From NCBI RefSeq assembly GCF_038024065.1, contig NZ_CP150667.1:3107501-3171500 (forward strand): a DNA stretch of 64,000 nt, given 5' to 3'. The notes beneath the pieces are model-generated. The model saw nothing but the letters and a program-made list of their open reading frames with translations. It was not told where the DNA came from and ran no database searches. This document shows, one piece after another, positions 43,916 to 53,052 of the stretch (the first letter of the stretch is position 1; every line of letters starts with the position of its first letter). Made by a program: the position numbers and the translations under genes. The DNA is from Polaribacter sejongensis. Lineage in GTDB: Bacteria; Bacteroidota; Bacteroidia; Flavobacteriales; Flavobacteriaceae.

Positions 43916-44053
43916 ATGAATATGAGCTTTTTAAATATACCACAAGTCTCTTGGGTAAACGGTACCATTATGATAGGCATTTTTGCATTGGTTGTTGTTG
44001 GCCTAGTTGTAGCCGTTTACTTATTAATGAGCACAGATAAAAAAGCAAAATAA
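43916..44053 (+). CDS. 45-residue single-helix membrane peptide
   Basis: An open frame of 45 codons encoding MNMSFLNIPQVSWVNGTIMI..., one hydrophobic helix (about residues 18-38, rich in Val/Leu/Gly) and a basic end, STDKKAK. With a start at 43922 it would be 43 residues. It has its own -7 box and a terminator 24 bases after the stop, the pattern of an independently transcribed small gene. I do not recognise the family. It sits between the efflux operon and the Crp/Fnr regulator. Confidence 0.65.
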   Translation: MNMSFLNIPQVSWVNGTIMIGIFALVVVGLVVAVYLLMSTDKKAK

Positions 44054-44180: not shown

Positions 44181-44813
44181 ATGACAAGTAAGTTAGAAAT
44201 TAATTTTGGTTACCTTTTTGAGGAAGATTTAATTTTAGAAATAGAAAAATTGGGTGTTTCTAAAACTTTTAAAGAAGATACAACCATTATAGAAGTTGGA
44301 GATTATATTAAATCGATGCCTTTATTAATTTCTGGAGCTATTAAAATTCTTAGAGAAGATGAAAAAGGAGATGAAATTGTTTTATACTATTTAGAAAAAG
44401 GAGATACTTGTGCCATGACACTTTCTTGCTGTATGGGACAAACAAAAAGTAAGATTAGAGCGGTTGCAGAAACAAATGTTGAATTAATTATGTTGCCAAA
44501 AGAAAAAATGGCAGAGTGGTTAGGAAAATATAAATCTTGGCAATCTTATATTTTACAAACGTATCATAATAGAATGGATGAGCTTTTAGAAGCCTTAGAT
44601 ACCATCGCTTTTCTAAAAATGGACGAACGCCTTTTTAAATATCTTAAAGATAAGGCAATGGTTACCCACAATGATGTTTTAAATGTTACCCACAAACAAA
44701 TTTCTGAAGATTTACATACGTCTAGAGTTGTCATTTCTAGATTGCTTAAAAAGTTAGAAAACGAAAGTAAAATTCAATTATTTAGAAATAGTATTAAGGT
44801 TTTAGAACTGTAA
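44181..44813 (+). CDS. Crp/Fnr family transcriptional regulator
   Basis: A 210-aa regulator with an N-terminal cyclic-nucleotide-type beta barrel (residues 20-130), a long dimerisation helix and a C-terminal winged helix-turn-helix (about 168-197, KQISEDLHTSRVVISRLL). Three Cys cluster in DTCAMTLSCCMG near residue 75-85, but the four-Cys pattern of an Fnr iron-sulfur cluster is absent, so the signal is not obvious. Three candidate binding sites with the same geometry lie at 44810-44823, 50471-50484 and 50567-50580, in front of redox genes. The first overlaps this gene's stop codon. Confidence 0.9.
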   Translation: MTSKLEINFGYLFEEDLILEIEKLGVSKTFKEDTTIIEVGDYIKSMPLLISGAIKILREDEKGDEIVLYYLEKGDTCAMTLSCCMGQTKSKIRAVAETNVELIMLPKEKMAEWLGKYKSWQSYILQTYHNRMDELLEALDTIAFLKMDERLFKYLKDKAMVTHNDVLNVTHKQISEDLHTSRVVISRLLKKLENESKIQLFRNSIKVLEL

Positions 44814-44823
44814 CATTAGTTAC
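44810..44823 (+). promoter_or_regulatory. Candidate Crp/Fnr-type operator, site 1
   Basis: Perfect inverted repeat GTAAC-ATTA-GTTAC overlapping the regulator's stop codon. Its centre (44816.5) is 29.5 bases before the first base of the -7 box at 44846, which puts it near -42 from the expected transcription start, the class II activator position. Confidence 0.65.
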
Positions 44824-44845
44824 TGTGTAATTTAAAGTGGTGTCT

Positions 44846-44853
44846 TATTTTTG
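44846..44853 (+). promoter_or_regulatory. Promoter -7 box of the di-haem lipoprotein gene
   Basis: TATTTTTG matches TAnnTTTG exactly; the start codon follows 12 bases later, so the leader is almost absent. Confidence 0.65.
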
Positions 44854-44864
44854 TAATAAAAAAG

Positions 44865-45872
44865 ATGAAATCTCTTACATTAATCGTCGTAATTGTCTTA
44901 GTTTTTGGTTGCAAAGATTCTAAAAAACCCACATATTCTAAAGGAAACGATGTCTTAGAAACTCAAGAACATGCCGGTAAAAAGTTATTAGAAACAAACT
45001 GTTACGTTTGCCACAACCCAACAACGATAGAAGATAATAGAATTGCACCACCAATGATTGCTATAAAAAAGCGTTATTTAATGGGGAATAACTCTAAAGA
45101 AGCATTTATAAAGTCGATACAAGATTTTATTAAAAACCCAACAGCAGAAAATGCTAAAATGTATGGGGCTGTAAAACGTTTTGGAGTAATGCCAAAACAA
45201 GCTTTTCCTGAAGAAACTATCAAAGAAATTTCAGATTATATGTTTGAGTTTGAAATTGAAAAACCAGAATGGTTTGAGGAACATTATAATCAACAACATG
45301 GTAATGGAAACGGAGGCGGTAAAGGAATGGGAAATAGCACTGGAAACGGAAAACAAAGACAGCAGCAAGGAAATAATTTTAAAAACTTATCTTATAGCGA
45401 AAGAGGTTTAAAATATGCGCTATCCACCAAGGCTGTTTTAGGCAAAAACTTAATGAGTAAAATTCAAAAAGAAGGAACTCTAGCATCATTAAATTTTTGT
45501 AATGTGCAAGCTTTTCCTTTAACAGATAGTATGTCTGTTGTACATAAAGCAACCATAAAAAGAGTCTCTGATAAACCAAGAAATATTAAAAATGTTGCAA
45601 ACACTTTAGAAAAAGGTTATATTAATATTTTTAAAGAAGAGGCTAAAAAAAATAAAGAGTCAGAACCAATTGTAGTAGTATCTTCCGAGGAGGTAAAAGT
45701 ATATTATCCTATCAAAACAAATAGTATGTGTTTGCAATGCCATGGAAAACCAACCTCAGATATTAAAAGCACTACATTGGCACAAATAGACAAGTTATAT
45801 CCAAAGGATTTAGCATTTGGATATAGTGAAAATCAAGTAAGAGGAATTTGGAGTATTACCTTTAATAAATAA
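44865..45872 (+). CDS. Di-haem lipoprotein: cytochrome c plus Tll0287-like (DUF3365) haem domain
   Basis: A 335-aa lipoprotein (lipobox VFGC, Cys16). The N-terminal class I cytochrome c domain has CYVCH at residues 46-50. A Gly/Asn-rich linker (about 145-168) follows, then a DUF3365/Tll0287-like domain with a second haem motif, CLQCH, near residue 289. Tll0287-type domains are thought to sense redox state or carry haem in signalling proteins, but no kinase is attached here. It directly follows the Crp/Fnr gene and precedes thioredoxin by 19 bases, with a candidate Crp/Fnr site in front. Confidence 0.8.
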
Positions 45873-45891
45873 TCATATAAAGTTCTTAGGC

Positions 45892-46191
45892 ATGAGTAAT
45901 TTTTCAGAAATTATAAATCAAGATAAACCTGTTTTAGTAGATTTTTTCGCAGAATGGTGCGGACCATGTAAAACCATGAGTCCAATTTTAAAAGAAGTAA
46001 AAGATGCATTAGGTGATGCAGTTTCTATTGTTAAAATAGATGTTGATAAAAATCAATCGTTAGCTGCAAAATATGAAGTTAGAGGTGTACCAACCTTAAT
46101 TTTATACAAGTCTGGCAAACAAGTTTGGAGACAATCTGGTGCAGTACCTAAAAACCAGTTAATCACTATTATAAATAACAGTGGTAAGTAA
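45892..46191 (+). CDS. trxA: Thioredoxin
   Basis: Classic cytoplasmic thioredoxin of 99 aa with the WCGPCK active site (Cys23, Cys26) and the cis-Pro segment [10 protein letters not shown]. It reduces protein disulfides. It shares the transcript with the di-haem lipoprotein upstream and is probably under the same regulator. A typical genome carries several thioredoxins; this one appears devoted to the redox unit. Confidence 0.93.
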
Positions 46192-46339
46192 TTTAATACT
46201 AGGTTGATTAGAAATAGTTTTCTAAAAAGGACATTTTTGTCAATCTAAATTTATTTCAGATTCTTATGAAGGTAGAACTTGATTAAGTTGATGTTTTGAA
46301 AAAGTTAAGTCTTTTAAACCTTTTTTTAGACAGCCTCTT

Positions 46340-47929
46340 TTATTTAGAAATACAATCTAAACTATAAAAACCACCACAATTTTCGGTTCTCTTTTTAGAA
46401 AATTGAGTAATTAAATATGCCGTTGTAATTAAGTTTCTTAATTCGCATAAATCTATAGAAAGTTCAGAATGGTCATAAAGGCGTTTGTTGTCTTCATAAA
46501 GTACTTTTAAACGCTTTTCTGCTCGTAACAAACGCTCGTTAGAACGCACAATACCTACATAATTCGTCATAATAGTTTTTACTTCATTTCTATCATGCGT
46601 AAGCAATACTTTTTCCATGTTTTTAATAACACCACTATCATTCCAAACCGGAATATCTTTTGGTCTTTTGGCTTTATTGTATTTTTTAGAAATACTTAAA
46701 AAGGCGTTGTGAGCATAAACCAAACCTTCTAATAAAGAATTAGAAGCCAATCTATTTCCGCCATGTAAACCAGTTCTTGTAACTTCGCCACAAGCGTATA
46801 ATTTTTTGATAGATGTTTTTGCTTTTTTATTCACATTTACACCACCACAAATGTAATGAGATGCTGGTACTACAGGAATATAGTCTTTGTTTACATCAAT
46901 ATTTAAAGAAGCACATTTTTCTGTAATATTAGGAAAATGTTCTTTAAATTTTACCATGTCTAAATTGGTACAGTCTAAATATACATGCGGTTTTCCACTC
47001 TTTTTTAATTCATTATCAATGGCTCTTGCAACAATATCTCTAGAGGCTAATTCTTCTCTTTCATCATATTTATGCATAAAAAAATCACCATTGTAATTTC
47101 TTAGTTTTGCACCAAATCCTCGCACAGCTTCGGATATTAAAAAGGCAGGATATTCGCCTGGGTTGTACAACGCTGTTGGATGAAACTGTATAAATTCCAT
47201 GTCAGAAATTTCTGCCTTTGCACGGTATGCAATTCCTATTCCGTCTCCAGTTGCCACAGTTGGGTTTGTAGTAGTTTCGTAAACTTGCCCATTTCCTCCT
47301 GAAGCTAAAAGTGTAAACTTACTTACAAAGGTTTTTACTTTATCTTCATTAATATCTAAAACATAAGCACCATAACAAGAAATTTTGCCATTTCGCTTTG
47401 TTTTAGTCTTTTTAGTTTGATGTTCTGTAATTAAATCTATCGCGTAATGATAGGTAAGAAATTCTATATTTTGTTGTGCATTTACTTGCGCTAATAAAGC
47501 ACGTTCTATTTCTGCACCTGTAATATCTGTATGATGTAAAATTCTGTTTTGAGAGTGTCCGCCTTCTCTACCTAAATCATAATTTCCTTTTTCGTTTTTA
47601 TCAAACTTTGTTCCCCAATCTATTAATTCTTGTAATCTTTCTGGAGCATCTCTAACCACCATTTTAACAACCTCTTCGTCACATAAACCATCACCTGCAA
47701 TTAAAGTGTCTTCTATATGTTGTTTAAAAGTGTCAACTGTTTTATTATAAACGGTAGCAATACCACCTTGGGCATATTTTGTGTTAGATTCGCTTTGTTT
47801 GTCTTTAGTAACAATAACAACTTTAGCGTCTTTGTGTTCAAGAGCAACTTTTAAAGCAAAAGTTAATCCAGAAACTCCAGAACCGATTATTAAAAAATCG
47901 GTAGAGATTATGTTTTTATCAGGTAACAT
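46340..47929 (-). CDS. nadB: L-aspartate oxidase
   Basis: Flavoenzyme of 529 aa that oxidises L-aspartate to iminoaspartate, the first step in de novo NAD synthesis. The FAD motif GSGVSGLTFAL lies near residue 17, and SNTKYAQGGIA and HxTALYNPGEYPAFLISEA-type active-site segments are present (FHPTALYNPGE, RGFGAKLRN). It follows nadA by nine bases on the minus strand, and the two enzymes act in succession. nadC is not in this window. Confidence 0.94.
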   Translation of the reverse strand: MLPDKNIISTDFLIIGSGVSGLTFALKVALEHKDAKVVIVTKDKQSESNTKYAQGGIATVYNKTVDTFKQHIEDTLIAGDGLCDEEVVKMVVRDAPERLQELIDWGTKFDKNEKGNYDLGREGGHSQNRILHHTDITGAEIERALLAQVNAQQNIEFLTYHYAIDLITEHQTKKTKTKRNGKISCYGAYVLDINEDKVKTFVSKFTLLASGGNGQVYETTTNPTVATGDGIGIAYRAKAEISDMEFIQFHPTALYNPGEYPAFLISEAVRGFGAKLRNYNGDFFMHKYDEREELASRDIVARAIDNELKKSGKPHVYLDCTNLDMVKFKEHFPNITEKCASLNIDVNKDYIPVVPASHYICGGVNVNKKAKTSIKKLYACGEVTRTGLHGGNRLASNSLLEGLVYAHNAFLSISKKYNKAKRPKDIPVWNDSGVIKNMEKVLLTHDRNEVKTIMTNYVGIVRSNERLLRAEKRLKVLYEDNKRLYDHSELSIDLCELRNLITTAYLITQFSKKRTENCGGFYSLDCISK

Positions 47930-47938
47930 TTTAAGGCG

Positions 47939-48934
47939 TTATTTAGAAAGTTCTAGCATTCTGTTGATAGGAATTATTGCTTTTTCACATAATTCTGCTT
48001 CCACTTCTATATTTGGTAATTCGTGTTTTAAACATAAATACAATTTTTGCATTGTATTCATTTTCATATAAGCACATTCGCTACAAGCACAAGTATTATC
48101 TTCTTTTGCAGGAGCAGGAATTATTTCCTTATCAGGATTTTCTTGTAACATTTGAAACAATATACCAGCTTCTGTAGCAACAATAAATTTCTTTTTATCG
48201 CTGTTTTTTACATGGTTTAAAAGACCAGAAGTAGAGCCAATATATTTGGCTACTTTAAGCATATGCGCTTCAGATTCTGGATGCGCAATTAATTCTGCAT
48301 CTGGATGTTCTTGATATAAGTCAATTAACTTTTCCATAGAAAAAGCTTCATGAACCATACAAGCGCCATCCCAAAGTAACATATCTCTTCCTGTTTCTTT
48401 ATTTAAGTAAGCTCCTAAATTTCTATCTGGAGCAAAAATAATGGGTTGATCTTGTGGTATAGAATCAATAATTTTTCTAGCGTTAGAAGAGGTACAAACG
48501 TAATCGCTTAATGCTTTTATTTCTGCAGAGCAATTAATGTAAGTAACAACTAAATGATCTGGATGTTTCTTTTTAAATTCTGAGAATTGTTCTGGCGGAC
48601 AAGAATCTGCCAAAGAGCAACCTGCTAGTAAGTCTGGTAATAAAACTTTTTTAGTAGGGTTTAATATTTTTGCGGTTTCTGCCATAAAATGAACTCCTGC
48701 AAAAACAATAATGTCTGCATCTGTTTTTGCTGCTTGTTGTGCTAAGGCTAAACTATCACCTACAAAATCTGCAATTTCTTGAATCTCATCTATTTGATAA
48801 TAATGCGCTAAGATAACTGCATTCTTCTCTTTTTTTAGTTTCAAAATCTCCTCAACATAATCAATATTAGGAGTTTCAATATCTAAAAATCCTTTTTTGT
48901 TGAGGTTTTTTTTTGCACTAACTAAAGTTTTCAT
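47939..48934 (-). CDS. nadA: Quinolinate synthase
   Basis: Iron-sulfur enzyme of 331 aa that condenses iminoaspartate with dihydroxyacetone phosphate to quinolinate. The three cluster cysteines can be placed in [17 protein letters not shown] and [11 protein letters not shown]; substrate-binding blocks ILAHYYQ and APDRNLG are present. It is the promoter-proximal gene of the nadA-nadB pair, with a -7 box at 48962-48969. Confidence 0.95.
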
Positions 48935-48961
48935 AAAAAGTGTTTATTATTAACTACGTTG

Positions 48962-48969
48962 CAAATATA
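48962..48969 (-). promoter_or_regulatory. Promoter -7 box of nadAB
   Basis: TATATTTG on the minus strand matches TAnnTTTG exactly, 28 bases before the nadA start. Confidence 0.6.
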
Positions 48970-49038
48970 AACTCTATTTTGTTGGTAGGAAAATGATTGC
49001 CATCATTCTGTTAAATTATGATTATAATAAGCTAAAAA

Positions 49039-49620
49039 ATGAACTTATCTGAAAAATTTTGGGAAAACAAGTACCAAACAAACAAAGTTGGTTGGGATTT
49101 AGGAGCGGTTTCACCTCCATTAAAAACATATTTCGATCAATTAACAAACAAAGAATTAAAGATCTTAATACCTGGTGGAGGAAATTCTTACGAAGCAGAA
49201 TATCTTTTTAATAATGGATTTACCAATGTTTATGTGGTAGATTTAGCTAAAAGTGCCTTAGAAAATATTAAAAATAGAGTTTCAGGTTTTCCAGAATCAC
49301 AATTAATTTTAGGAGATTTTTTTGATGTAGATCAAACTTTTGATTTGATTATTGAACAAACTTTTTTCTGTGCAATTCATCCGGATTTAAGAGAAAAGTA
49401 TGCATTGAAAATGAATCGTCTGTTAGGCGAAAACGGGAAATTAGTAGGCTTGCTTTTTGATGCAAAACTAAATGATGATCATCCACCTTTTGGTGGAAGT
49501 AAAACAGAATACATCACTTATTTCGATTCTCATTTTACAATGGATGTTTTTACAGCATGTTATAATTCTTACCCAAACAGACAAGAAATGGAGTTGTTTG
49601 TGAAGTTTTTGAAGAAGTAA
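49039..49620 (+). CDS. Thiopurine S-methyltransferase (TPMT) family protein
   Basis: A 193-aa SAM-dependent methyltransferase with the TPMT-family opening FWENKYQTNKVGWD (residues 7-20), SAM motif LIPGGGNSYEAEYL (about 53-66) and IIEQTFFCAIHP. Bacterial relatives methylate thiols, tellurite, selenite or hydrogen sulfide-like species; the substrate is unknown. It stands alone between nadA (divergent) and the tlpA-like gene (convergent). Confidence 0.85.
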   Translation: MNLSEKFWENKYQTNKVGWDLGAVSPPLKTYFDQLTNKELKILIPGGGNSYEAEYLFNNGFTNVYVVDLAKSALENIKNRVSGFPESQLILGDFFDVDQTFDLIIEQTFFCAIHPDLREKYALKMNRLLGENGKLVGLLFDAKLNDDHPPFGGSKTEYITYFDSHFTMDVFTACYNSYPNRQEMELFVKFLKK

Positions 49621-49661
49621 TATACGAGAGTCTAAAAGGTGTGTTTTATGTGAGTCTTAAT

Positions 49662-50267
49662 CTATTTGATGTTTTCTAGAAATACTTTAAATTCATCCGT
49701 ATTATAATTAGCCATTCCCTCATGTGTTAATACAATATTTTTATCAGCATCAATGATGTAAGTTGTTGGTAATGCAGACGATTGTAACATTGCAGGCAAG
49801 TTACTGGCAAGTGTATATATTGGTAAATTATATCCTTTTTTCTTATTAAAAGCCTTTGCTGTTTCAAAATCTTTATCAAAAGACAGCAGTATAAAAGCGA
49901 CATCATTACCCATTTCTTTATGTAATTTACTAATACTTGGCATTTCTGCAATACAAGGAGGACACCACGTTGCCCAATAATTTAGAAATATTACTTTGTC
50001 TTTTAAATCTGCTAAAGATGTCATTTTACCATCGCCATCTATCAACTTTACATTTAAATCAGCTTTTGTGTATTCAGAAATGGTTTCAGAAGCATTTTTA
50101 TTTGTTATTTCCTTTACATTAGGGTTCATTAACCCAGTAGCCAATACGCCTCGTTGTACGAAACCAATAACTTCTGTATGCAAACCTGTAACATAAAGTG
50201 TAATTATTATGAAGACAAAAACTCCGTTCTGAATCCACGTTTTCTTGGTGTTTTTATCTTTCTTCAT
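49662..50267 (-). CDS. TlpA/ResA-like membrane-anchored thioredoxin
   Basis: A 201-aa protein with one N-terminal membrane helix (residues 13-30) and a periplasmic thioredoxin-like domain with active site WCPPC (Cys102, Cys105). WCPPC is typical of TlpA/ResA-type reductants involved in cytochrome c maturation or oxidase copper-site assembly. The last residues show cis-Pro ALPTTYI. It has an exact -7 box and a candidate Crp/Fnr site upstream, spaced exactly as for the di-haem lipoprotein gene. Confidence 0.88.
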   Translation of the reverse strand: MKKDKNTKKTWIQNGVFVFIIITLYVTGLHTEVIGFVQRGVLATGLMNPNVKEITNKNASETISEYTKADLNVKLIDGDGKMTSLADLKDKVIFLNYWATWCPPCIAEMPSISKLHKEMGNDVAFILLSFDKDFETAKAFNKKKGYNLPIYTLASNLPAMLQSSALPTTYIIDADKNIVLTHEGMANYNTDEFKVFLENIK

Positions 50268-50440
50268 TTTATTATTTTTTAAGAAATTATATCTTTTTTT
50301 AACTTTTCTATTTCTAATGTCAATTTATGTAGGATGTTTTATAATTGGTAATTATAAAGTTTGTCCCATCAATATCCTTAATTTTTAAGAAAATTAAAAA
50401 GCAACATAATTTCTAATTTATTTTACATTTTTATAAAGTA

Positions 50441-50448
50441 CAAACATA
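50441..50448 (-). promoter_or_regulatory. Promoter -7 box of the tlpA-like gene
   Basis: TATGTTTG on the minus strand matches TAnnTTTG exactly. The leader to the start codon at 50267 would be about 165 bases. Confidence 0.55.
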
Positions 50449-50470
50449 AATAAAATAAGACTTTACGTAG

Positions 50471-50484
50471 GTAACACTAGTTAC
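50471..50484 (-). promoter_or_regulatory. Candidate Crp/Fnr-type operator, site 2
   Basis: Perfect inverted repeat GTAAC-ACTA-GTTAC, extended by one pair to GGTAAC...GTTACC. The centre (50477.5) is 29.5 bases from the first base of the leftward -7 box (T at 50448), identical to site 1. Confidence 0.65.
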
Positions 50485-50566
50485 CAAACTTGTTAAAGTA
50501 ATATTAAATAATAGCACCTCTATGTGTTCTTGTTTTATTAAATTTACCAATGTAAAATATGGTTTA

Positions 50567-50580
50567 GCTACTTATGTTAC
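50567..50580 (+). promoter_or_regulatory. Candidate Crp/Fnr-type operator, site 3 (degenerate)
   Basis: GCTAC-TTAT-GTTAC: the right half is perfect and the left half has two mismatches to GTAAC. The centre (50573.5) is again exactly 29.5 bases before the -7 box of cydA at 50603. Confidence 0.5.
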
Positions 50581-50602
50581 ATAGGGAGTGTAAGACAATG
50601 TA

Positions 50603-50610
50603 TATTTTTG
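50603..50610 (+). promoter_or_regulatory. Promoter -7 box of cydAB
   Basis: TATTTTTG matches TAnnTTTG exactly. Because it covers the upstream in-frame ATG at 50608, the true cydA start must be the later ATG at 50644. Confidence 0.65.
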
Positions 50611-50643: not shown

Positions 50644-51975
50644 ATGGAAGACATGATTTTTTATGATAGACTGCAGTTTGCATTTACTATCACCTTTCAC
50701 TACATATTTCCGCAATTGACAATGGGACTTTCTTTAATGATTGTTTATTTTAAATGGAAGTATTTAAGAAATAATGATGAAAAATATAATGATGCTGCAA
50801 AGTTTTTTATGAAAATTTTTGCCATTAATTTTACAATGGGAGTTATTACAGGAATTCCTATGGAATTTCAATTTGGTACCAATTGGGCAAAATTTTCTGA
50901 GTTAACGGGTAGTATTATTGGGCAAACCTTAGCAATGGAAGGTCTGTTTTCTTTCTTCTTAGAATCCTCTTTCTTAGCACTCTTTATTTTTGGTGAAAAA
51001 TTAATGGGGCAAAAACTCCATCTTTTAACAGGTTTTTTAGTCTTTTTAGGTTCTTGGGCAAGTGGTTGGTTTATTTTAGCGACCAATGCTTGGATGCAAC
51101 ATCCTGTAGGGTATGAAATTTTAGATAATGGAAAATTTGTATTAGAAAATTTCTCTTCATTGTTTTCAAACCCTTGGTTATTACCTGCTTTTTTACACAA
51201 TCAATTTGCATCTGTAGTAACGTCTTCTTTTGTGGTAGCCAGTATTGGTGCTTTTTATATTTTAAGAAAGAAACAAATAGAATACGGAAAACTATTTCTA
51301 AAAACAGGTGTAATATTTGGGTTGGTTTCGAGTGTTTTGGTGGCTTTTCCCACGGGAGATTGGAACGCTAAGAATGTTGCCAAATACCAACCAGCTGCTT
51401 TTGCAGCCATGGAAGGAATTTTTGAAACAGAAGAAGCTGGAGCAGAAATTGTTTTGATTGGTCAGCCAAATATGGTTGAAAAAAAGTTAGATAATAAAAT
51501 TGCAGTTCCTAATATTTTAAGTTTTTTAACGCATCAAGATTGGAATAAGCAAATTCCTGGAATGGATCAATTTAAAGAAGAAGAATTGCCAGATAATATT
51601 CCAGCACTTTATTATTCATATCATATAATGGTTGGTTTAGGTACTATTTTTATTGGTATTATGGCATTAGCACTTTTCTTTTTATGGCGAAAAAAATTGT
51701 ACACTTTTAAGCCATTGCTCTGGTTTATTCTGTTTTTGGTTCCGTTTCCATACATTGCTAACCTTACAGGTTGGTACACGGCAGAATTGGGGAGACAACC
51801 TTATTTAGTATACGGATTGCTAAAAACAAGCGATGGTGTTTCACCAACGGTGTCTTCGGGAAATACTTTATTTACCTTATTGGGTTTTGTTGCTTTATAC
51901 ATGCTATTAGGACTATTATTTTTAGTTTTAGTTGGCAAAACGATAAACGAAGGTCCTAAACTTCAAAAACATTAA
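50644..51975 (+). CDS. cydA: Cytochrome bd ubiquinol/menaquinol oxidase subunit I
   Basis: Haem-bearing subunit (443 aa) of the high-affinity bd oxidase. The start at 50644 is preferred over 50608, which overlaps the promoter; it places the family haem ligand His at residue 19 (FHYIFPQL), as in E. coli. The GRQP motif is present (GRQPYLVYG). The length is that of the short Q-loop type. cydB follows three bases later. A degenerate Crp/Fnr-type site upstream suggests induction when oxygen is scarce. Confidence 0.94.
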   Translation: MEDMIFYDRLQFAFTITFHYIFPQLTMGLSLMIVYFKWKYLRNNDEKYNDAAKFFMKIFAINFTMGVITGIPMEFQFGTNWAKFSELTGSIIGQTLAMEGLFSFFLESSFLALFIFGEKLMGQKLHLLTGFLVFLGSWASGWFILATNAWMQHPVGYEILDNGKFVLENFSSLFSNPWLLPAFLHNQFASVVTSSFVVASIGAFYILRKKQIEYGKLFLKTGVIFGLVSSVLVAFPTGDWNAKNVAKYQPAAFAAMEGIFETEEAGAEIVLIGQPNMVEKKLDNKIAVPNILSFLTHQDWNKQIPGMDQFKEEELPDNIPALYYSYHIMVGLGTIFIGIMALALFFLWRKKLYTFKPLLWFILFLVPFPYIANLTGWYTAELGRQPYLVYGLLKTSDGVSPTVSSGNTLFTLLGFVALYMLLGLLFLVLVGKTINEGPKLQKH

Positions 51976-51978
51976 ACG

Positions 51979-53052
51979 ATGGAAATATTTTGGTACATTA
52001 TAATAGCAACTGTTTTAGGGATCTTTTTTGTTTTAGACGGATATGATTTCGGAACAGGAATTATTCATTTATTTTTTGCGAAAAAAGAAAAAGATAAAGA
52101 AGTAATTACAAAATCTGCAGGTTTATTTTGGGACTCTAATGAGGTTTGGTTAGTGGCTGCAGGTGGAATGCTCTTTATGGCTTTCCCTACTTTTTATGCT
52201 TCTGTATTTAGCGGGTTCTACTTGCCCTTAATCATCGTTTTATGGTTGATTATTTTTAGAGCAATTGGACTTGAATTTAGAAGTCAATTTAAGTTTCAAA
52301 TGTGGAAAGATATTTGGGATGTTTCTTTTGGAGTTTCTAGTTTATTATTAGCCTTATTTTTTGGAATTGCGCTAGGGAATATTGTGAGAGGTGTAAATTT
52401 AGGTGGCGTAGAAAACGGAACCTCTGTTTACGAAGGACATTATTTTTTCTTACCACTTTGGGATAGTAGTTTTAGCCCTTTAACAGAACATCCAGGAGTT
52501 ATCGATTGGTTTACGATTATTATAGGTTTAATTTCTGTAGTAACTTTAGCAATACACGGTGCTAATTGGATAATTTTAAAAACTAATTCGTCTATCAATT
52601 TAAAATTAAAAGGTGTTATTTTTAAGTTGAATATTGTTTTAACAATTCTTACTATTTTTTCGGTAGCAGTTTGGCAAATTGTAAATCCAGACTCTTTAAA
52701 TAATTTTGTTGATAAACCTTATTTATTAGTATTCCCAATGCTGTATTTTACAGGATTAGTTGGTTTGTTTTTTATCAAAAAAATTAAAAAAGATGTGCAT
52801 GCTTTTTGGTTATCAACGTTATTAATATTAGGAGGAATTACTTCTTCTTTGGCTTCTTTATTTCCAGTTATTTTACCTTCTGTTAACGATGTTCACGAGC
52901 CACTTACTATATACAATACTGCGGCACCAGAATACGGTTTGTCTATTGCATTTATTTGGGGGATTATTGGTATTATCTTAGTTGTGATTTACGCAATTAT
53001 CCAAAAAATATTAAAGGGTGGTAAAGTTGATAAAATGGATTACGGTCATTAG
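51979..53052 (+). CDS. cydB: Cytochrome bd oxidase subunit II
   Basis: Membrane subunit II of 357 aa with about eight helices. The family opening is clear: an N-terminal helix, then LDGYDFGTGIIHLF and WDSNEVWLVAAGGMLF. It stabilises the haems of CydA. It is cotranscribed with cydA and followed 15 bases later by a small membrane protein gene. Confidence 0.94.
   Translation: MEIFWYIIIATVLGIFFVLDGYDFGTGIIHLFFAKKEKDKEVITKSAGLFWDSNEVWLVAAGGMLFMAFPTFYASVFSGFYLPLIIVLWLIIFRAIGLEFRSQFKFQMWKDIWDVSFGVSSLLLALFFGIALGNIVRGVNLGGVENGTSVYEGHYFFLPLWDSSFSPLTEHPGVIDWFTIIIGLISVVTLAIHGANWIILKTNSSINLKLKGVIFKLNIVLTILTIFSVAVWQIVNPDSLNNFVDKPYLLVFPMLYFTGLVGLFFIKKIKKDVHAFWLSTLLILGGITSSLASLFPVILPSVNDVHEPLTIYNTAAPEYGLSIAFIWGIIGIILVVIYAIIQKILKGGKVDKMDYGH

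Follow-up and report, generated by a model that had tools for sequence, protein, structure and literature searches.

The regulator CRP of Escherichia coli binds the operator GTGA-N6-TCAC, and FNR, which has four cysteine ligands that include an N-terminal cluster, recognizes TTGAT-N4-ATCAA. Here we describe a Crp/Fnr-type regulator and its likely operator in a stretch of 64,000 nucleotides from Polaribacter sejongensis (contig NZ_CP150667.1, positions 3,107,501 to 3,171,500 of the forward strand; the whole stretch is called the window, and coordinates are counted from its first letter). The regulator gene (44181..44813, plus strand), assigned from its open reading frame, Pfam matches and conservation, encodes 210 amino acids. 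It adjoins the inverted repeat GTAAC-N4-GTTAC, which differs from the FNR operator and, written as GTAA-N6-TTAC, also from that of CRP. A sequence-only reading of this DNA had called the operator unlike the E. coli types. This is correct with respect to CRP and FNR, but the motif is not unprecedented, since it contains GTA-N8-TAC, the operator core of NtcA, the Crp/Fnr regulator of nitrogen control in cyanobacteria, for which an activator position of about -41.5 is given (PMC3898017). The comparisons reported below make it likely that the Polaribacter protein is a class II activator of a sulfide and persulfide regulon, and not chiefly of an oxygen or thiol regulon.

The window contains two perfect copies of the repeat, operator 1 (GTAACATTAGTTAC, 44810..44823) and operator 2 (GTAACACTAGTTAC, 50471..50484), which as palindromes have no strand. 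Shuffled versions of the window average 0.07 copies, and none of 100 reached two. The stop codon of the regulator gene (TAA, 44811-44813) sits within operator 1. At both operators, a gap of exactly 22 nt (29.5 bases from the centre of the repeat) leads to an exact TAnnTTTG -7 box. The box of operator 1, TATTTTTG (44846..44853, plus strand), precedes genes for a di-haem lipoprotein with a cytochrome c domain and a Tll0287-like domain (44865..45872, plus strand) and for a trxA-like thioredoxin (45892..46191, plus strand). The box of operator 2, TATGTTTG (50441..50448, minus strand), precedes the gene for a TlpA-like thiol-disulfide protein (Redoxin/AhpC-TSA; 49662..50267, minus strand). A degenerate operator with two mismatches, GCTACTTATGTTAC (50567..50580, no strand), which is variable across the genus, stands at equal distance from a further box TATTTTTG (50603..50610, plus strand) in front of cydA and cydB (50644..51975 and 51979..53052, both plus strand), the genes for cytochrome bd subunits I and II. 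All these genes were assigned from open reading frames and Pfam matches. The two repeats, their spacing, the degenerate copy at cydAB and the adjacency of the regulator gene had all been described in the sequence-only reading and were found exactly so. In F. psychrophilum, the TAnnTTTG box occupies -12 to -5 (PMC9723704), which places the operator centre at -41.5, a class II position that the earlier reading had given as -42. A symmetrical operator at a predicted class II position is in keeping with the Crp/Fnr superfamily.

The palindrome alone is a poor guide. The 4.50 Mb genome of the window has 11 perfect palindromes, compared with 6 for the reversed pattern. Of the 11, six fall inside open frames, which are 186-1004 codons long, and a single repetitive coding region accounts for three of the six. 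The remaining five are in no open frame longer than 46 codons, and all five have a box at 22 nt, exact in four cases and with one mismatch in the fifth. The four sites with exact boxes precede the di-haem/trxA unit, tlpA, an outer-membrane efflux gene and a Thioredoxin_9-type gene (the Pfam names of the last two were taken from locus L014 and the homologue L071), and the fifth, with the box TAATATTG, precedes a gene for a protein without Pfam match. A one-mismatch site with an exact box is found in front of a rhodanese gene. Because six of 11 copies are in open frames, the palindrome by itself was rejected as evidence, whereas palindrome plus spacing is specific, with four exact matches and none for the reversed control. 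Matches with up to three mismatches are uninformative (91 real, 113 reversed). The sequence-only reading had stated that random positions across the genome would speak against it; the palindrome alone is indeed not specific, but the palindrome with its box is.

The operator is tied to the regulator across the family. The exact 44-mer of site, N22 and box, with the reversed pattern as control, was searched in 149 genomes of the same family, nearly one per genus, and the same genomes were searched with the regulator protein (strong match, E <1e-50; none, no match at 1e-12). The 44-mer occurs 209 times in 101 of the 149 genomes, and the control twice. It is present in 100 of 128 genomes with a strong regulator match, in one of nine with a weak match and in none of 12 without (Fisher, strong versus none, 7.7e-8). 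Several of the 12 regulator-free genomes are small, and genome size is therefore a possible confounder, although the control background is only two matches overall. Among 247 genomes of the class, a sample that overlaps with the family sample in at least G000 (the window genome), G115, G111 and G147, the 44-mer is found in 47, with 67 matches compared with four for the control.

To avoid circularity, a set of named loci, the best 80 of 592, was fetched by the regulator protein alone. These loci hold 127 perfect palindromes compared with one reversed control, with one or more in 72 of the 80. TAnnTTTG lies 22 nt away in 70 cases and 21 nt away in four, and every other spacing from 5 to 44 occurs at most once. 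The 70 sites define the extended consensus T(83%)GTAAC-N4-GTTAC. A site lies between -30 and +150 of the regulator stop in 57 of the 80 loci, at no more than 10 nt in 31 of the 57. The seven closest named regulators, with 75-86% identity, are from Polaribacter. The scan of the genome and its relatives that had been proposed with the sequence-only reading thus came out in favour of the motif, and from these comparisons we regard the operator, its fixed spacing and its link to the adjacent regulator as nearly certain.

The genes behind the sites point to reactive sulfur. Downstream regions were followed at 154 sites, namely 150 listed family sites (of the 209 family matches) and the four of the window genome, and first genes were picked mechanically as those on the same strand near the box, which left 12 loci without an assigned first gene. 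The others are TauE (31), MBL-rhodanese (26), outer-membrane efflux (25), a small protein that heads DoxX-DsrE-SoxB-like operons (8), TlpA/Trx-like, Thioredoxin_9 and SulP (6 each), rhodanese (5), di-haem (4), YgaP-like and YeeE/YedE (3 each), peroxiredoxin, CydA, SQR-like, fatty-acid-hydroxylase-like and the regulator itself (2 each), and nine others that include one DsrE. Sulfur genes are the largest group. The 70 sites in the named loci gave TauE 31, MBL-rhodanese 14, di-haem 7, efflux 6, rhodanese 4, SulP 3 and others 5. Pfam searches with representatives back the assignment of TauE, SulP, YeeE/YedE (Sulf_transp), DsrE, DoxX, rhodanese, SoxA/TsdA-type cytochrome and Thioredoxin_9. A script gave the MBL-rhodanese label to members of one BLAST cluster on the basis of their length and N-terminal motifs, and the sequences suggest that these genes are persulfide dioxygenase (PDO)-like. 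For 68 of the 150 family sites, no listed regulator is found on the same contig at a distance of up to 20 kb, a count that left out two partial regulators and includes some short contigs. The first genes at these sites break down into efflux (16), not assigned (9), thioredoxins (9), DoxX-DsrE-SoxB-like (6), rhodanese/PDO (6), SulP (4), TauE (3), other (6) and nine from smaller classes, and are again rich in sulfur, thioredoxin and efflux genes. On this gene content, it is highly probable that reactive sulfur is the theme of the regulon across relatives. The sequence-only reading had proposed a small regulon of thiol-redox proteins and the high-affinity oxidase. The set of putatively regulated units is wider than that, and its theme across relatives appears to be a different one. 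In the window genome itself, the regulon may have been reduced to thioredoxin, TlpA, rhodanese, efflux and perhaps the bd oxidase, which would account for the thiol-redox theme seen there.

Some gene families behind the operator deserve mention in their own right. Genes for outer-membrane efflux (OEP) proteins (clusters C2-C3), in many cases with HlyD-type genes behind them, are among the largest groups. At loci L250 and L256 (~5717, plus strand), the operator precedes the gene for a ferredoxin-like protein of 538 amino acids with several cysteine motifs, which by eye resembles the iron-sulfur subunit of sulfur-oxyanion oxidoreductases. Fatty-acid-hydroxylase-family genes (cluster C15, for example L110, 838-1734, minus strand) are found within some TauE/PDO-like operons; a link to sulfonolipids is speculation.

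The gene set matches that of the sulfide-induced FisR and BigR operons of Acinetobacter, and in Acinetobacter baumannii the targets include PDO, SQR and TauE, and yeeE-yedE-pdo2 (PMC7315123). FisR belongs to the sigma54 activators and BigR to the ArsR-type repressors (PMC7315123), whereas a Crp/Fnr activator is predicted here. Cytochrome bd is described as raised by sulfide and as H2S-resistant (PMC8148161). A. baumannii Crp, which is persulfidated in cells, offers a likeness at the level of the regulator, but it is reported as a proteome target, and the available excerpts of the report give no sulfur regulon or dedicated operator for it (PMC7315123). RedB was considered as a relative and rejected, since its motif is non-palindromic (PMC9603854). 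Reviews name CstR, SqrR/BigR, PigS, FisR, CsoR, OxyR and SoxRS as sulfide or persulfide regulators (PMC9774590, PMC8148161). PerR, MarR, AdpA, HlyU and others are further regulators linked to sulfide or persulfide among the papers listed. To our knowledge, none of the regulators named, from CstR to HlyU, is a Crp/Fnr protein. Among the matches listed in searches of the open-access literature, there was no Crp/Fnr sulfur regulator (the spelling with a slash is not matched throughout) and nothing on this system under the operator motif; no open-access paper on Polaribacter sulfur genes was found. The recurrence of the arrangement in many relatives points to a sulfur-control system for which we found no description in that literature.

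The protein is a member of the Crp/Fnr superfamily by sequence and by its predicted fold. Pfam identifies cNMP_binding (PF00027, 45.4 bits) and HTH_Crp_2 (PF13545, 29.9 bits), both above the gathering score, and at E up to 0.001 only Crp/Fnr domains were found, and no CsoR, ArsR or sigma54-activator fold, the types to which the persulfide-sensing regulators CstR, SqrR/BigR and FisR belong. The AlphaFold model has a pLDDT of 84.6 and a pTM of 0.62, with residues 71-90 as its least confident stretch. Its best PDB matches are CRP-type chains, over both domains. The sensor domain alone fits to about 2 Å, and the large root-mean-square deviation of the full-length model is probably due to a different orientation of the two domains. 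With E. coli CRP, the regulator shares the fold, the two-domain layout and the 14-bp half-site geometry, but it scores 55.5 bits against a CRP model cut-off of 266 and has Val in place of Glu181. It is similarly distant from NtcA (55.6 bits, model cut-off 244.95), although NtcA also has Val at this position, in the helix STRVTVTR that aligns with TSRVVISR, the recognition helix of the regulator. The genes behind the sites are moreover sulfur, not nitrogen genes; the cysteine cluster seen here would be a further difference. With FNR, the regulator has the fold in common, and respiratory genes are among the possible targets. Unlike FNR, it has no N-terminal cysteine cluster, and its only cysteines, Cys77, Cys83 and Cys84, are fewer than the four ligands.

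These three cysteines are conserved. In 20 relatives, they are invariant together with SRVVxSR, and in a set of 40 sequences, Cys77 is present in all and Cys83 and Cys84 in 39, the exception being a paralogue with SREGISR. All three cysteines and a Val-type helix are present in 121 of 133 regulators, and for 101 of these 121, the fetched locus contains a perfect site. The 133 remained from 169 fetched loci (30 family, 80 named and 59 class-level, 29 of the 59 chosen by the motif) after removal of duplicates and of rows with gaps in the signature. The cysteine stretch GDTCAMTLSCC, which falls in the least confident part of the model, was aligned by hand to the phosphate-binding cassette of CRP. 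Met79 then takes the place of Glu72, a residue of the cassette for cyclic AMP (cAMP) in E. coli CRP. For both cAMP-type and FNR-type sensing, the assessment is based on sequence. That the protein senses its signal through Cys77, Cys83 and Cys84 is about as likely as not.

The helix residue offers an explanation for the operator sequence. CRP contacts bases with Arg180, Glu181 and Arg185 (PMC12531629, Table 1). The regulator has Arg182-Val183-Arg187 with GTAA where CRP has Arg180-Glu181-Arg185 with GTGA, and Val183 in place of Glu181 would explain the A, not G, at the third half-site base. Val and Glu types were compared in 90 of the 154 class genomes that have a regulator match, each represented by its best regulator. 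The 44-mer is present in the genome for 26 of 47 with Val183 and 6 of 43 with Glu, and, within the type with all three cysteines (CCC), for 22 of 38 with Val and 1 of 22 with Glu (p 2.5e-5). When the helix columns are left out of the tree, five changes of the residue are required, and starred branches force four of the five. A starred clade with 15 members consists of 12 Val and three nested Glu types. The three Glu members have GTGAC-N4-GTCAC just behind the gene, with an exact box in one and a one-mismatch box in two, whereas the 12 Val members have GTAAC-N4-GTTAC in five cases, GTGAC in none and neither in seven. The first eight Glu-type regulators (seven CCC, one CCT) had no adjacent GTGA site, nor any other half-site with a box. 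After 60 more loci, an adjacent GTGA site was found for four of 22 CCC Glu-type regulators (three perfect, one with one mismatch), and three of these four sites have an imperfect box. GTGA-N6-TCAC at the same 22-nt spacing was also scanned in 44 class genomes, all 22 CCC-Glu and 22 of the 38 CCC-Val, and gave 36 matches compared with one reversed control. Several Crp/Fnr proteins therefore probably share this architecture, and a class II geometry of this kind probably serves one or more further Crp/Fnr regulons.

The place of cydAB and tlpA in the regulon is less firm than the sequence-only reading had it. Forty genus genomes gave 19 cydA matches, of which 15 close orthologues (window genome included) were counted and four distant ones (33-42% identity) left out. 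A related site is at the right place in eight of the 15: three have the form of the window, itself included, one has a one-mismatch site, two have a one-mismatch site with an imperfect box, and two have GTGAC-N4-GTCAC, which may be read by another Crp/Fnr protein. Of the remaining orthologues, one has a perfect palindrome, though no box, at 270 nt upstream, and six have no site by the criteria used; one of the distant matches has a two-mismatch site with a good box. Sites that face away from cydA, as at tlpA, were scored by position relative to cydA, whichever gene is the neighbour in each relative. Among the 15, a perfect palindrome with a good box in this orientation is present in the window genome only, and two relatives keep a three-mismatch form with a perfect box. 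Conservation upstream of cyd, which the sequence-only reading had named as a check, is thus partial, and in the tlpA orientation the perfect site is kept in none of these relatives. The standing of both as regulon members is weakened.

We propose that the product of 44181-44813 is an activator of the Crp/Fnr type that would bind as a dimer to (T)GTAAC-N4-GTTAC, with -41.5 as the centre of the site, and would recruit RNA polymerase with the primary sigma factor of Bacteroidota in a class II manner. In the Flavobacteriaceae and several other families of the class, it would switch on a reactive-sulfur regulon for sulfide oxidation, persulfide dioxygenase and rhodanese steps, transport of sulfite, sulfate and thiosulfate, protein-thiol repair, and perhaps a sulfide-tolerant bd oxidase. 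The likely signal would be persulfide, polysulfide or a related sulfur species that modifies Cys77, Cys83 or Cys84, predicted to lie at the position of the cAMP phosphate-binding cassette of CRP. The operator and its spacing, the co-occurrence, the gene content and the conserved residues can be read from the sequences themselves; binding, activation, signal and cysteine chemistry are inferred from them. A bolder version is tentative, and we would stop short of favouring it: a Crp/Fnr reactive-sulfur sensor, widespread in Bacteroidota and switched by persulfide at a C-x5-CC motif in place of the cyclic-nucleotide cassette, might be the master activator for the handling of sulfide and persulfide, with an operator that co-evolved with one helix residue (Val with GTAAC, Glu with GTGAC).

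A number of observations weigh against these proposals. The exact 44-mer is absent from 28 of the 128 genomes with a strong regulator match, and eight of the 80 named loci, three of them Polaribacter records, have no perfect site. NCBIfam matches fall short of the curated cut-offs for SoxB, CoA-disulfide reductase, TsuA, SQR and the bifunctional sulfur transferase/dioxygenase, names that are therefore similarity labels. The efflux units (OEP-HlyD), 25 of the 154 first genes, have no obvious sulfur role. TauE was not matched in the window genome, where the persulfide-dioxygenase-like gene follows ruvB-sulP and has only a two-mismatch site, which lies upstream of ruvB-sulP, and within the genus, the cydA site is only partly and the tlpA site hardly kept. 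As for the helix residue, there are only four phylogenetically independent pairs, so that the association of Val or Glu with the genome-wide 44-mer is not significant after this correction. Two Glu-type paralogues without the CC pair (G256, G313) are beside perfect GTAAC sites, 16 of the 47 Val-type regulators have neither site type near the gene, and GTGA-type units with identical spacing are found in 16 of 22 CCC-Glu and also in nine of 22 CCC-Val genomes (Fisher 0.07) and are thus not peculiar to the Glu type.

Other explanations have to be set beside the sulfide and persulfide regulon. The efflux genes, together with the thioredoxin-like and peroxiredoxin genes, would suit a general thiol-stress regulon, in which the same cysteines sense oxidants, electrophiles, disulfides or metals and the pumps export metals or thiol adducts. 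This is unlikely in view of the persulfide-dioxygenase-like, TauE, YeeE/YedE, DsrE, SoxB-like and SQR-like genes, which indicate sulfur chemistry. Alternatively, the protein may resemble FNR and activate respiration and thiol redox when oxygen is low, with the sulfur genes as a side branch. The cytochrome bd, cytochrome c and thioredoxin genes of the window fit such a role, as does cydA as the first gene at two of the 154 sites. However, sulfur genes are the largest first-gene group, the cydA sites vary within the genus, and the protein has only three cysteines and no FNR-type N-terminal cluster, all of which makes an oxygen regulator decidedly improbable.

The adjacent regulator might also be a bystander, with another Crp/Fnr paralogue reading the GTAAC sites. 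The enrichment of GTGA-N6-TCAC at the same spacing (36 matches against one), a form also seen at cydA in two genus genomes, indicates that such paralogues may exist. The GTAAC unit tracks the regulator, however, being absent from all 12 genomes without a match, and sits directly behind its gene, and the regulator is the only match to itself in the window genome at 1e-12, which makes a bystander very improbable. Finally, chance palindromes in front of common -7 boxes could be suspected from the six of 11 genomic copies in open reading frames. The controls (209 against two matches in the family, 67 against four in the class) refute this explanation, which has a negligible probability. If the regulator does control a sulfide and persulfide regulon, a large group of marine bacteria would possess a switch dedicated to sulfur. 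The operator and its fixed spacing can be used directly for tests across whole genomes, and the natural Val and Glu variants provide a simple model of a regulator and its sites changing together.

Some minor features of the loci may be added. At about 3.39 Mb of the window genome (locus L006, 3-1445, minus strand), a protein of at least 481 amino acids without Pfam match starts 25 nt past the near-perfect box of a perfect operator. At the efflux locus (L005/L014, ~3.179 Mb), the L005 site also has a near-perfect box in the opposite direction, TATAATTG. Three perfect palindromes at about 3.55 Mb (L007-L009) are in similar repeats about 1.05 kb apart, within one long coding region, a warning that palindrome counts on their own mislead. 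In the window, an open reading frame of 45 codons (43916-44053, plus strand), with one membrane helix by eye, lies between the upstream OEP-like gene and the regulator gene.

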